The translations under genes were made by a program, and so were the position numbers. A stretch of 64,000 nucleotides of DNA, taken from contig JAKFUZ010000006.1 of assembly GCA_021732445.1 (NCBI GenBank), positions 1 through 64,000 of the forward strand, read 5' to 3'. Within the stretch, counting starts at the first letter, position 1. Each line of letters begins with the position of its first letter. This DNA is from Sphingomonas sp. GTDB taxonomy: Bacteria; Pseudomonadota; Alphaproteobacteria; Sphingomonadales; Sphingomonadaceae. Positions 21,961-64,000 of the stretch are shown here, one piece after another. Below the pieces are notes generated by a model. That model was not told where the DNA came from, did no database searches, and saw only the letters and a program-made list of their open reading frames with translations.

Positions 21961-23034
21961 ATGATGGCCGTACTGAACGAAGAACAAACGATCCTGCGCG
22001 ACATGGTGCGCGAATGGGCGGACAATGAATCCCCCGTCACAGCGTTTCGCCAAATGCGCAACGCCGGCCCGCCCGAAGGCTATGACGCCAAGGCATGGTC
22101 GGTCATGGCTGAAATGGGGCTGGCGGGCATTGTGATTCCCGAGGAATTTGGCGGCACGGCGTTTGGCTATCTGTCGCTTGGGCTGGTGCTGGAGCAGCTT
22201 GGCCGCAACGTCGCGGCTTCGCCGCTGGCCGCCACGGCAACAGCGGCCACCGCTATCGTGATAGGCGGCACGGCCGAACAAAAGGCAAGCTGGCTGCCCC
22301 GCATTGCCTCAGGCGCCATCGTGGCTGCGCTCGCGGTCGATGAAGGCCCGGTACATAACCCGGCCATGCTGAGCACGAGCGTTTCCGGGGGAGCGCTCAC
22401 GGGCACCAAGGCATTTGTCGCGGAAGGTGACAGCGCGGGCGTGTTTGTCGTGGCGGCGGTTGACGGGCTGTATCTTGTGGCGGGCGACGCCGCCGGTGTC
22501 ACGCGTTCGGCGCGGCACATGGCGGATGCCCGCAGCCACGCCGAAATCCGCTTCGACAAGGCACCTGCCGACCGGCTGGGGGACACGACGCTCACCGCGG
22601 CGATTGTCGACCGGGCAACCGCGGCGGTATGTGCCGAAATGCTGGGACTTGCGACCCAGGCGTTCGAGACGACCAATGATTATCTCAAGACGCGGGTGCA
22701 GTTTGGCCAGCAGCTTTCGACCTTTCAGGCGTTGCAGCACCGCATGGCAAAAATGTTTACCGAGCTGGAGCTGATGCGCTCGGCGGTGGAGGGTGCGCTT
22801 GAAGCGATTGACGCAAACCGGTCCGACATCGACCAGGCGGTGAGCCTTGCCAAAGCGGTGGGCGGTGACACGCTAAGGCTCGTCAGCCGCGAAATGATCC
22901 AGCTTCACGGCGGTATTGGCATGACTGATGAGCATGACGCGCATTTCTATATGAAGCGTGCCGCTGTGCTGGAAGCGATGTGGGGCAACGCGTCCTTCCA
23001 CCGCGAGCGGTTTGCCCGGCTGAACGGCTATTGA
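21961..23034 (+). CDS. Acyl-CoA dehydrogenase, small-subunit type
   Basis: About 357 residues, a partner-type ACAD. It shows IVIPEEFGGTAFGYLSLGLVLEQ, a shortened middle domain (VDEGPVHNPAML where classical enzymes have a TEP-type segment), TRVQFGQQLSTFQALQHRMA and HGGIGMTDEHDAHFYMKRA. AAAGG precedes ATG 21961. Very likely forms a heteromer with the upstream ACAD; the same pair architecture recurs at 35104-37453. Confidence 0.9.
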   Translation: MMAVLNEEQTILRDMVREWADNESPVTAFRQMRNAGPPEGYDAKAWSVMAEMGLAGIVIPEEFGGTAFGYLSLGLVLEQLGRNVAASPLAATATAATAIVIGGTAEQKASWLPRIASGAIVAALAVDEGPVHNPAMLSTSVSGGALTGTKAFVAEGDSAGVFVVAAVDGLYLVAGDAAGVTRSARHMADARSHAEIRFDKAPADRLGDTTLTAAIVDRATAAVCAEMLGLATQAFETTNDYLKTRVQFGQQLSTFQALQHRMAKMFTELELMRSAVEGALEAIDANRSDIDQAVSLAKAVGGDTLRLVSREMIQLHGGIGMTDEHDAHFYMKRAAVLEAMWGNASFHRERFARLNGY

Positions 23035-60270: not shown

Positions 60271-60675
60271 ATGCCGCCAATGACTGGTGCGATTGCGCTG
60301 TTTCAGGTGTTCGATATGCCAAATGCGATCGCGTTTTACTGCGACATTCTGGGTTTTGAGATTTACCGTCATTCCCCTTTTGTGGAAACAGCGGAAGGGC
60401 GCTTTTTCCACTGGGCATGGCTGCGCAACGGCCCGGTCGAACTGATGCTAAACACCGCCTTTGATGCCAACGAGCGGCCGCCTGCGCCCGATGCCGCGCG
60501 CTGGTCCGGGCATCGCGATGTCAGCCTGTCGCTTGGCTGTGCCGATGTCGATGCGGTCTATGCCGAACTGGTTGCAAAGGGGCTGGAAATGTCTCCGCCG
60601 CGGACGTCTCCACACGGCCCTCGCGAGCTGAGCGTGCATGACCCCGACGGCTATGAGCTGTGCTTTCGCAGCTAG
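60271..60675 (+). CDS. VOC/glyoxalase-fold protein
   Basis: About 134 residues: ALFQVFDMPNAIAFYCDILGFEIY, WLRNGPVELMLN, GCADVDAVYAELVAKG and ELSVHDPDGYELCF (metal-ligand Glu). Vicinal-oxygen-chelate fold, substrate unknown. GGAG precedes ATG 60271. Its stop codon lies within the thiolase-end repeat. Confidence 0.9.
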   Translation: MPPMTGAIALFQVFDMPNAIAFYCDILGFEIYRHSPFVETAEGRFFHWAWLRNGPVELMLNTAFDANERPPAPDAARWSGHRDVSLSLGCADVDAVYAELVAKGLEMSPPRTSPHGPRELSVHDPDGYELCFRS

Positions 60676-60716
60676 TCCATCACCTCCACCGCGACGGCTG
60701 TTGCCTCGCCGCCGCC
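60671..60716. repeat. 46-bp imperfect direct repeat, left copy
   Basis: Matches 62251-62296 at 43 of 46 positions. Both encode a thiolase C-terminus on the minus strand. The copies flank the DUF3047 fusion gene. Confidence 0.85.
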
Positions 60717-60749: not shown

Positions 60750-62024
60750 TCAAAATCGGCAAGGCGCACCCCGCTGCACAAGGTGAAGGTCGGCATAGGC
60801 TGCGTCGGCGATCTCGCCCGTATTGTCGGTATCGGTTGCCAGCGCGATTAACATGATCTTGCCTTCTGTCGTGCCGAACTGGCTCCGCATGTCGGAGACG
60901 AGATCTCGCCGTTCGGCAACCCATTTCCCTGCCTGTGCATTGCCCGATTGCAGGACGAACATCCGCGCGCGATCCGTATAGGCGTTGGGCACGATGGTCC
61001 CTACCGGCGCCCTATTGTCCCACACATAGTTGAGTGCCCCATCGGGCAACAGCTTGCCGAACCGAGAACGGCCCAGGGCCAGCTTCAAGCGCGTGCCGAG
61101 CGATAGTGCAGACCGCGGCAACGCCAGCCCCACCAATATGCGCGCGGCCTGATCGTCGCCACCCTTTTTGTGGATATCGGCGCGTTCGATAACACCCGCC
61201 ACGCGCCACCGCCAGCACAGGATCGGAGTCCGTTCGAGCATCGCATCAACATCGCGGATGAACAGCGCTTGGCTGTGATCGGCATGCGCCGCAATCCCGG
61301 CAACGCCGTCCTTGTGTGTAAGGGTGTAGCGCGTCGGCGCCACCTTGCTGTCGATCTTTCTAATCGACCAGCCCGACGTCCCCATCGCGAAACGTCCCAG
61401 CGGGACCACCTCGTTGCCCACGCCCCCCTCGGCCCGCGCGATACTTGCCGACAAAAGCGCCAGCGTCGCCGCATAGGGCAGCGCCACCAACGCGATGAGG
61501 CAACGCAACCAGCGACGCTGTGCAAATGCCAGAAGACGCCAGGCCATGAACAGGCCAATCGCCGATTCAAACGCCATTGCGGGCACACCAAAATGTTCCG
61601 GATCATAATATGAAATCGGGGAAACAAACTTCCAGTTCGATATCGGCCACAATTGCATATGTGCATCTTCGCGGTGGCAGAGGAAATCGATACAGCAATG
61701 CGCAAATCCGCCAGCGCCCGCAGCCAGCAGGATCGCCGGCAAACGGGCGGACGGCCATTGCCGCCGCGCTACCAGGGCAGTTGCGAGCAGCACCGGCCAG
61801 AGGATGAGGCTGTGCGCGATGCCGTTGATGTGCTGCCACCAGGGCTGGAAGTAGTCATGCTCAAATATCTCGCGCGCGCTGTGGCCCATTGTCCGCAATG
61901 CCGCGACGATGGCGAACATGGGCAAATCGGGCGCCATGCCGGCGATGGCGCCAGCCGCCATCAGTGTCGCATCGCGCCGACCGAAAAAATAGGCGCCGAT
62001 CAGCGCGTGCGTTTGCGTTTGCAT
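60750..62024 (-). CDS. Membrane metal-dependent hydrolase domain fused to DUF3047
   Basis: 424 residues. The N-terminal half (1-195) has several membrane segments and His/Asp sites: THALIGAYFFGRRD, MAPDLPMF, NGIAHSLILWP and HCCIDFLCHRED. This resembles the YdjM-type predicted membrane hydrolases (PF04307-like). The C-terminal half (about 200-424) matches DUF3047: SIRKIDSKVAPTRYTL, LCWRWRVAG, KKGGDDQAARILVGLA, YVWDNRAPVGTIVPNAY and ALATDTDNTGEIADAAYADLH. DUF3047 proteins are usually stand-alone secreted proteins, so the fusion is unusual. Flanked by thiolase-end repeats. Function unknown. Confidence 0.8.
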   Translation of the reverse strand: MQTQTHALIGAYFFGRRDATLMAAGAIAGMAPDLPMFAIVAALRTMGHSAREIFEHDYFQPWWQHINGIAHSLILWPVLLATALVARRQWPSARLPAILLAAGAGGFAHCCIDFLCHREDAHMQLWPISNWKFVSPISYYDPEHFGVPAMAFESAIGLFMAWRLLAFAQRRWLRCLIALVALPYAATLALLSASIARAEGGVGNEVVPLGRFAMGTSGWSIRKIDSKVAPTRYTLTHKDGVAGIAAHADHSQALFIRDVDAMLERTPILCWRWRVAGVIERADIHKKGGDDQAARILVGLALPRSALSLGTRLKLALGRSRFGKLLPDGALNYVWDNRAPVGTIVPNAYTDRARMFVLQSGNAQAGKWVAERRDLVSDMRSQFGTTEGKIMLIALATDTDNTGEIADAAYADLHLVQRGAPCRF

Positions 62025-62250: not shown

Positions 62251-62296
62251 GCTAGGCCATCATCTCCACCGCGGCGGCTGTTGCCTCGCCGCCGCC
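62251..62296. repeat. 46-bp imperfect direct repeat, right copy
   Basis: Same orientation as 60671-60716, 43 of 46 bases identical. The thiolase similarity continues 15 bases further here than in the left copy. Confidence 0.85.
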
Positions 62297-62311
62297 GATG
62301 CACAGGCTCGC
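62252..62311 (-). pseudogene. Thiolase 3'-end remnant (right)
   Basis: The minus strand reads ASLCIGGGEATAAAVEMMA-stop, the last 19 residues of an acetyl-CoA acetyltransferase-type protein. The gene is cut at about 62312, where virB11-like sequence begins on the other strand. Confidence 0.78.
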
Positions 62312-62496
62312 TCACCACCATTCATGCCGACAGCCCGGAAGGCGCGATTGAGCAAATGGCGCTCATCATCCTGCAATCCGGCGTGCAGCTGCGCCGCGCG
62401 GACATTGTCGATTATGTGCGCGGCGTGGTGGATGTGTTCGTGCAGCTCGAACGGCGTGGCGGCCAGCGGCGGGTGTCGCGCATTGTGGCGAAATAG
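62308..62496 (+). pseudogene. VirB11-like conjugation ATPase, 3' fragment
   Basis: Encodes SLTTIHADSPEGAIEQMALI, then VQLRRADIVDYVRGVVDVFVQ and a final RRVSRIVAK-stop, the C-terminal end of a type IV secretion VirB11/TrbB ATPase (HADSP motif after the Walker B region). About 62 codons remain. The Walker A part and start are missing, and it is fused to the thiolase remnant. A relic of an integrated conjugative element or plasmid. Confidence 0.78.
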
Positions 62497-62571
62497 GGGG
62501 CGGCTTGGCCGTGGTGGATATGGCAGGGCAGGCCGCGCAGGTGTGTCCATTAGGTATTGTGTTCCTGGAAT

Positions 62572-62907
62572 TCATTCCCCCTCTCTGTCGACTCCAATCA
62601 GCCGGGTAGGCGCCCCTTTGGAGAAGCAGTACGTAGTTGCGCCACCATACACTCGTGCTCTGGGAACAAATCTTATGCACGACCTATCGCTGAATCCCAG
62701 ATAGCTTATGTAAAAGCTATGCGATATCATGCTTTCGCTAGCACCCTCTTCTTTGATAAAGAACTTGGTAGCTGCAACCTCGTAAGGTTGGTCTGCATGT
62801 TGCACGAGAAAAATCTTCTCCAAAGAAGATAATCTGGAATACGTCATTACCAGCGCGGCCAGAATAACAATGGTCAATGCAATCCAGATTATGCGTTCAA
62901 ACTTCAT
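62572..62907 (-). CDS. Putative membrane-anchored immunity protein for the adjacent RHS toxin
   Basis: 111 residues: N-terminal membrane anchor (IIWIALTIVILAALVMTYS), then about 85 residues, probably periplasmic, with two Cys. No family recognised. It starts 2 bases after the RHS stop codon, so its ribosome-binding site lies inside the RHS gene and translation is probably coupled. GC is low: 50 of 120 bases are G/C at 62701-62820. Position and composition fit a toxin–immunity pair; function is inferred. Confidence 0.65.
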   Translation of the reverse strand: MKFERIIWIALTIVILAALVMTYSRLSSLEKIFLVQHADQPYEVAATKFFIKEEGASESMISHSFYISYLGFSDRSCIRFVPRARVYGGATTYCFSKGAPTRLIGVDREGE

Positions 62908-62909
62908 AA

Positions 62910-64000
62910 CTATTGCCCAGTATAACAGCGGATCGTTTTATCACGACCGATGACCATAGTTGTATAACCTGAGGGTGTGTTCTTTACGTCTGGTCCGCTC
63001 GGGCCTGTCGCTTGGGAGTGCGTGTGTACATCGAAGTTATCCAACGAACCCGGATTAAGATCTATGTTCGATTGAGACCCCTCGATAATGTCGCTCGTCA
63101 CAAAGCCTGGACCGAACAGGAACGGGAAGAGGTAGGGTCGCCCTGTGAAGCCGTATTCTCGGAAGGGAGGCCCACTTGGATTCCGCTGCTGCGCAGAAAA
63201 CGCCCGACGTTGCGCCTCCAGTGCTTTGGCTTGAACCCCCGGATCGTAAGAAGGCCCTCCAGCCGGACACGACTTATCGACCGTCACCTTCTGCGGCCCC
63301 GCGCCGGGTGTTCCTCTTTTGCCGACCCTGGCTGCGGTTACCAGGATTTCGCCAGCCTCACCGCTGGTCCCCCCGCCGCCACCGCACAGAACGCCGAGCG
63401 GTCCGCTGCACGGATCGCTACTTCCAAAGGAAAAACCGCCGCCGCCCAAGTCAAAATTTGAAAAACTCTCTGTCGCCTTGAATCGCTTTTCCGTAATTAC
63501 AATTTCGTCCTCCTCCAGCCCGCTCGGGTCGCGCCCATTGACTGGGTCGGAGCCGACATAATTATACCAGTTCAGCCCGTCGGCATAGCCGATGGGGTCG
63601 GTTTGGAGGAACCGGCCAAGCGTGGGGGAATACATGCGGGCCTTATAATAGTATAGGCCGATCTCGGGCAACCACGCCTGGCCGGTGTACTGAAACCGGC
63701 CGATGTTGGTGGCGGCGGGAATGCCATATTCGTCATACGAGTTGATCGCTGTTGCCAGGCCGCTGGCGTTGGTGACAGCGACCACACTCCCGCGCTCGTC
63801 CTGGACCAGCCAGCGCTTGTCGGTGGTGCCGGTGCCCTCGTACCAAACCAGCGGCTCATCGTCACCGGGGCCGTAAACATAGCGCCTGAGCGGCGCGGGG
63901 GACCCGCCCCACAGATATTCGCCGATGATGTTGGTGCCGTCGCTGGCGAACCGAAGATAGGTGCCTGACGTGGTGTTGAACCCCTGGAGTTCATCGAGCG
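62910..64000 (-). CDS. RHS-repeat protein, C-terminal part with JAB/DUF4329-like tip (runs off the right edge)
   Basis: 362 codons are visible; the frame is open to the edge, so the N-terminus lies beyond it. YD/RHS core: RRYVYGPGDDEPLVWYEG, RWLVQDERGSVVAV, FQYTGQAWLPEIGLYYYKAR and the RHS core end GRFLQTDPIGYADGLNWYNY followed by DPSGL. After this comes a variable tip of about 200 residues. It contains two TonB-box-like motifs (EIVITEKR, EILVTAAR), a Gly-rich linker and a terminal domain with DVHTHSQATGPSGPD, a JAMM/DUF4329-like metal motif. RHS cores encapsulate polymorphic toxins for contact-dependent delivery. GC falls from core to tip. Confidence 0.88.
   Translation of the reverse strand, partial: LDELQGFNTTSGTYLRFASDGTNIIGEYLWGGSPAPLRRYVYGPGDDEPLVWYEGTGTTDKRWLVQDERGSVVAVTNASGLATAINSYDEYGIPAATNIGRFQYTGQAWLPEIGLYYYKARMYSPTLGRFLQTDPIGYADGLNWYNYVGSDPVNGRDPSGLEEDEIVITEKRFKATESFSNFDLGGGGFSFGSSDPCSGPLGVLCGGGGGTSGEAGEILVTAARVGKRGTPGAGPQKVTVDKSCPAGGPSYDPGVQAKALEAQRRAFSAQQRNPSGPPFREYGFTGRPYLFPFLFGPGFVTSDIIEGSQSNIDLNPGSLDNFDVHTHSQATGPSGPDVKNTPSGYTTMVIGRDKTIRCYTGQ

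Follow-up and report, generated by a model that had tools for sequence, protein, structure and literature searches.

An orphan RHS tip module in Sphingomonas sp. pairs a tip carrying JAB-like motif residues with a candidate membrane-anchored immunity protein

The stretch of Sphingomonas sp. DNA analysed here, called the window, comprises 64,000 nucleotides and covers positions 1–64000 of a 287,630-base contig. At its far end, three features follow one another on the minus strand: the end of an RHS core (63513–64000), a toxin tip (62910–63294) and a small gene encoding a 111-residue immunity candidate (62572–62907). The minus-strand frame reads DPIGYADGLNWY from 63599, DPSGL from 63530 and HTHSQATGPSGPD from 63026, that is, a core closing on DPIGYADGLN...DPSGL followed by a tip with HTH-x6-SGPD, whose TAG stop lies at 62910–62912. 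The small-protein frame starts with the ATG at 62905–62907, leaving a 2-base gap after the TAG of the tip. The core end matches the NCBIfam model TIGR03696, Rhs_assc_core (E=2.6e-22; score 79.1 bits, model cut-off 32.5), and the homology continues to approximately 64097, outside the window. An earlier, sequence-only reading had listed this core boundary, the HTH-x6-SGPD tip, the 2-base spacing and the 111-residue partner, all of which are confirmed by direct reading. Of its G+C counts per 60 bases (36, 30 and 22), the values of 30 at 62941 (tip) and 22 at 62701 (small gene) stand, and the count at 63541 (core) is corrected to 35. The small gene, at 46.4%, is the G+C minimum of the window, which averages 64.2%: among 1274 sampled 336-base segments, just four have a G+C content of ≤46.4%, and each of these overlaps it.

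The tip and the immunity candidate together form a non-repeated cassette (62505–63294) that lies between two repeated arms. The arm on the RHS side (63295–63897, minus strand) is 95.4% identical, across 606 bases, to a neighbouring RHS copy just outside the window (contig 65470–66075), as found by blastn of the genome's own RHS stretches, and this identity ends at 63295, where the tip begins. The repeat resumes downstream of the immunity gene as the tail of virB11: here, a virB11 3' fragment (62305–62504, plus strand) is convergent with the immunity gene and shows 99.5% identity to 64275–64474 and 98.5% identity to 26000–26199 of contig C13. Both arms recur at other RHS copies, with the RHS core on one side and the virB11 tail on the other. 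The G+C content of the cassette is 51.4%, versus 61.9% and 65.5% for the arms. Thus, the view of the tip–partner pair as a cassette set between repeated arms holds in the blastn comparison and, because the cassette is flanked in this way, we infer that tip and immunity gene are exchanged jointly between loci.

Several further features are found around the module and at related loci. Just outside the window, another orphan RHS copy occupies contig positions 64579–66245 (L006). Its tip differs from that of the window copy, and the 170-residue frame behind it has a lipobox-like start, which makes this frame a second envelope-type immunity candidate. A 46-base stretch from the end of a thiolase gene occurs in three near-identical copies, at 60671–60716, 62251–62296 and contig 66193–66238. 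The third copy, beyond the window, forms the end of the thiolase gene proper (Pfam Thiolase_N/C). The copies flank the RHS modules together with a neighbouring gene, and resemble duplicated insertion-site ends. Beside the RHS module, at 60750–62024, a single gene fuses a YdjM-like membrane part (E=2.8e-8) to a DUF3047 domain (E=1.5e-61). On contig C27, near the contig end (L008, 18609–24471), two further orphan RHS copies lie beside a transposase-like frame, which we take to be of the IS1595 type, with a lipoprotein-like frame (22180–22572) between the two copies. At L069, L070 and L071 (genomes G245 and G566), full-length RHS genes have shorter RHS copies behind them or nearby, as in enterobacterial orphan arrays.

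The sequence-only reading had named the feature an RHS polymorphic toxin and, as the description of a complete protein, this name does not hold. The tip-bearing frame, open over 582 residues, extends beyond the window edge to 64658, yet its RHS homology starts only near 64097 (start by residue count on P0009), so that the RHS part is approximately 395 residues long. Upstream of this point, the frame reads through a virB11 3' fragment (64095–64482) in reverse complement; a longer virB11 copy on contig C13 matches Pfam T2SSE (E=4.2e-17). The core does end before a variable tip, as seen from the TIGR03696 match and from the divergence of the tip from the neighbouring copy past 63295. A YD-repeat barrel and an N-terminal export region in the same protein were not found in the window copy, for which the RHS_repeat match is weak (E=0.023), and the YD-repeat models TIGR01643 and PF25023 (TEN_YD-shell) have no match at E≤0.01 anywhere in the genome. 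Listed as 100% complete, the 2.8 Mb assembly of 38 contigs contains five RHS-core copies, in frames of 582, 611, 479, 334 and 332 residues; a complete main RHS gene was not found among the 38 contigs, a number at which one may be missed. Across the genus, the RHS core is present in 57 of 201 genomes, the own genome included, with many copies on frames of 1300–1500 residues. The window copy lacks a signal peptide and the YD-repeat part, whereas the same tip is present elsewhere on long, full-length RHS frames with signal-peptide-like starts (G616 and G631). Consisting of an RHS fragment, a tip and an immunity gene without a complete head, the feature is, as judged from its sequence, better named an orphan RHS tip module.

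The window copy is likely a silent spare or a leftover. As a silent reserve, it would have to recombine with a complete RHS gene before it could act. A stronger version of the leftover reading is that the RHS and VirB pieces are decayed remnants of a complete RHS/VirB locus that was lost, with no present function here. This is a serious contender, held at slightly less than an even chance, and it is compatible with the explanation preferred below. It is favoured by the absence of YD-repeat and VirB8 model matches from this genome (G000), which has virB11 fragments only, by the several partial RHS copies and by the thiolase gene end fragments repeated around the modules. Against it, the tip and immunity frames are stop-free and the tip retains the residues shared by all four tips, which argues against long decay, though not against silence.

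These residues are H103, H105, S112, D115, C22 and C136, identical in 4/4 aligned tips, and they are joined by a candidate Glu59 that precedes the HxH in three of the four. There is variation around the motif: the spacing between S and D differs among tips, the G631 tip reads GPSD in place of SxxD and the G616 tip carries HAH, not H[ST]H. The tip had been called JAB/DUF4329-like (DUF4329 being, we take it, PF14220) and a profile search against these families had been proposed. The recurrence of HxH, S and D in four tips speaks for this assignment; the searches do not, as the four tip-bearing sequences are without a Pfam hit up to E=10 and three tips scanned against NCBIfam and PADLOC are without a JAB hit, with profiles that may miss distant members. 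A usable PDB sequence match for the tip was not found either, and its structure model is unusable (pLDDT 34.2). The order of the motif residues fits Tox-JAB as tabulated in the available portion of Zhang et al. 2012 (PMC3482391), and the tip may work like a JAB enzyme.

The partner is better defined. Its membrane segment, residues 6–24, has a hydropathy of 2.38 and contains no cysteine, and a strongly hydrophobic segment near the N-terminus is present in 29 of 31 partner homologues. In the structure model (pLDDT 88.7), a long N-terminal helix (residues 2–33) is followed by helices and four strands that form a small alpha-beta domain with weak resemblance to cystatin-like and NTF2-like chains. 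Hydropathy, homologues and model helix thus agree with the N-terminal membrane segment proposed from the sequence. Cys77 and Cys94 are invariant in 28/28 aligned homologues, and a weak relative of the partner in G654 has a lipoprotein-like start. In the family libraries searched, no model matches tip or partner. Because of the N-terminal membrane segment, the invariant cysteines, the confident alpha-beta model and the lipoprotein-like relative, a periplasmic position of the domain is favoured; the charges next to the membrane segment would fit either orientation.

The RHS carriers also bear on the compartment. Signal-peptide-like starts are present in 36 of 43 long RHS frames, versus 48 of 139 non-RHS frames and 169 of 880 shuffles, and six of the seven long RHS frames that fail this test resemble signal peptides by eye. 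With a stricter pattern, the counts are 25/44, 26/217 and 29/880, respectively, the extra long frame having been admitted by a looser core pattern; the G616 carrier fails the stricter pattern. Full-length carriers would reach the periplasm by Sec and, because of this, the producer would need protection in the periplasm, which the anchored partner domain with its cysteine pair would supply. The preferred explanation, in which we place about even confidence, is that the module is a displaced RHS tip–immunity cassette, whose tip is likely a JAB-like metal-dependent hydrolase acting on the envelope side and is predicted to be blocked by the membrane-anchored partner encoded 2 bases downstream.

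Alternatively, the cassette may be equally cognate and the tip a cytoplasmic enzyme, such as a JAB-fold nuclease, with the membrane partner catching the tip as it enters or holding it at the inner membrane. In the available text of Zhang et al. 2012 (PMC3482391), toxin JAB domains are indeed proposed to be nucleases, since they lose the residues lining the ubiquitin-tail tunnel. Consistent with this alternative, the charges beside the membrane segment of the partner are compatible with a cytoplasmic domain, and a Pfam scan of 46 RHS tails (44 long frames, the window copy and P0001) finds the nuclease family Tox-REase-7 in two. The same scan finds envelope-type tails as well (Tlde1 in 1/46 and PLA2G12 in 1/46). 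These, together with the invariant cysteine pairs in tip and partner, the Sec-like carriers and the lipoprotein-like relative of the partner, make a cytoplasmic target rather unlikely.

The displaced-cassette explanation, with its envelope-side tip, requires that tip and small protein belong together, and this was assessed with two profiles, one for the tip (A4, built from two sequences) and one for the small protein (A3, built from 11), which were searched separately in 295 same-genus genomes. The tip profile matches three of these genomes and the small-protein profile 12. At all three tip loci the small protein adjoins the tip, with its start located from 19 bases before to 2 bases after the end of the tip gene. 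In G616, the tip closes a 1381-residue RHS frame, with a 4-base overlap between the RHS stop and the partner; in G631, the frame has 1514 residues and the overlap is 19 bases. The tips themselves are divergent, with identities to that of the window of 56% (P0010, the closest tip homologue, labelled Sphingomonas sp.), 36% (G616) and 30% (G631). The closest homologues of the partner sit on short metagenome contigs; gene order was read in the same-genus genomes. The proposed pairing is therefore upheld by adjacency at 3/3 tip loci from separate profiles and, by this gene order, tip and small protein are a cognate pair, of which three adjacent examples are known.

Occurrence of the small protein without RHS genes had been named in the sequence-only reading as evidence against such a pairing, and this was seen in part. 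Relatives occur alone at 10 places in 9 of the 295 same-genus genomes, with no RHS-core match in the 6–11 kb around each, and at four places in four genomes of another genus, with no RHS-core match within 14–15 kb; the pairing at 3/3 tip loci still stands. These solo genes may be orphan immunity genes or something else. The branch from the other genus (L017–L020, L127–L130), for which the homologue name labels include Blastomonas, occupies a fixed place beside a SPOR-like/TPR gene in three of four genomes (L017–L019). That the small protein is a general envelope protein lying behind some RHS genes by chance, as the solo relatives might suggest, is very improbable, since it lies directly beside the tip, overlapping or nearly touching, at every tip locus, though its profile matches only 12/295 genomes.

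An RHS gene follows homologues of VirB4, VirB6, VirB8 and VirB9 and a virB11-like frame in G566, and follows virB11 and a VirB2 homologue in G585; in G616, the next VirB-type feature is a VirB2 homologue ~2.6 kb beyond the tip. A class of VirB8 proteins, defined by a cut-off of E≤1e-57 that was chosen after a score gap was seen, is present in 30 of 57 RHS-positive genomes versus 8 of 80 RHS-negative genomes; a Fisher test that leaves shared descent aside, with 80 of the 144 RHS-negative genomes covered, gives p=5.5e-8. In 15 of these 30 genomes, VirB8 lies ≤15 kb from an RHS core, versus 0.76 expected by random placement in a 4.2 Mb genome, and in the other 15 it has no RHS core within that range. 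Among the tip-bearing relatives, VirB8 of this class is ~7 kb from the tip in G616 and on another contig in G631, and it has no match in the own genome. A full-text literature search did not bring up the RHS–VirB link, a negative that argues only weakly for its absence from the literature. The pattern would be equally expected from a mobile island on which RHS genes ride as passengers.

The RHS–VirB neighbourhood suggests a delivery route for RHS toxins. In a broader and doubtful model, RHS toxins that are exported by Sec and have swappable tips would be the cargo of a dedicated VirB-type system in this genus, folding in the periplasm and being carried on by VirB while envelope-anchored immunity guards the producer; JAB-like tips would then be envelope-attacking metalloenzymes rather than attackers of DNA or ubiquitin-like proteins. 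As a second pair, from another lineage, with a JAB-like tip, membrane-segment immunity and Sec-signal-like carriers, the module makes the target of JAB-type tips testable.

The closest known system is the Tox-JAB-1/Imm65 pair: in the available text of Zhang et al. 2012 (PMC3482391), the lipoprotein Imm65 is the strict partner of these RHS tips from Bacteroidetes. The likeness extends to the RHS carriers, the HxH, S and D of the tip, the envelope-anchored immunity and an export of T2SS/Sec type. Imm65 has a signal peptide and a lipobox, whereas the partner here has a cysteine-free membrane segment, the lineage is another one and no family model matches. The sequence-only reading had considered a peptidase-type effector with a membrane-anchored inhibitor unusual; this precedent tempers the claim, while the same authors term Imm65 exceptional for being lipobox-anchored (PMC3482391). 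The second relative is Tox-JAB-2/DUF4329 with Imm-NTF2 family 2 (PMC3482391), which shares the order E, H[ST]H, S, D and likewise occurs on RHS proteins and in alphaproteobacteria. It differs in that the tips here have no Pfam match up to E=10, that G616 has HAH and that the partner here is membrane-anchored. The weak resemblance of the partner model to cystatin-like/NTF2-like chains touches on Imm-NTF2 family 2.

The enterobacterial orphan rhs-CT/rhsI modules are described in a paper that we take to be Koskiniemi et al. 2014. As given in the available text (PMC3967940), they resemble the present module in comprising a partial core, a tip and an immunity gene without a complete head, with the same tip on full-length proteins elsewhere. 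The enterobacterial orphans lie downstream of a main rhs gene, whereas here a complete RHS gene was not found in the genome and the virB11 tail forms the other arm.

Effectors of the bacteria-killing X-T4SS use a C-terminal XVIPCD signal and are not known to carry a Sec signal. In the available account of this system and its X-Tfe/X-Tfi pairs (PMC6536674), the likeness lies in VirB-type genes and toxins occurring in one genus, and in immunity proteins against periplasm-acting effectors that carry a signal peptide and a lipobox. In contrast, the link between RHS and VirB here is one of gene neighbourhood only.

In bacterial teneurin-like proteins (PMC13018210, in the available text), the carrier is likewise a YD-shell, the C-terminus is polymorphic and toxic, and signal peptides are predicted; one of the C-terminal domains inhibited growth only when exported. 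They differ in that PF25023 (TEN_YD-shell) is without a match in the present genome. As far as the available texts go (PMC3482391, PMC3967940, PMC6536674, PMC13018210), there are separate precedents for JAB-type RHS tips, for envelope immunity, for orphan modules and for cassette exchange. What is new here is the tip–partner pair, its lineage and the statistical link of these RHS genes with one class of VirB genes.
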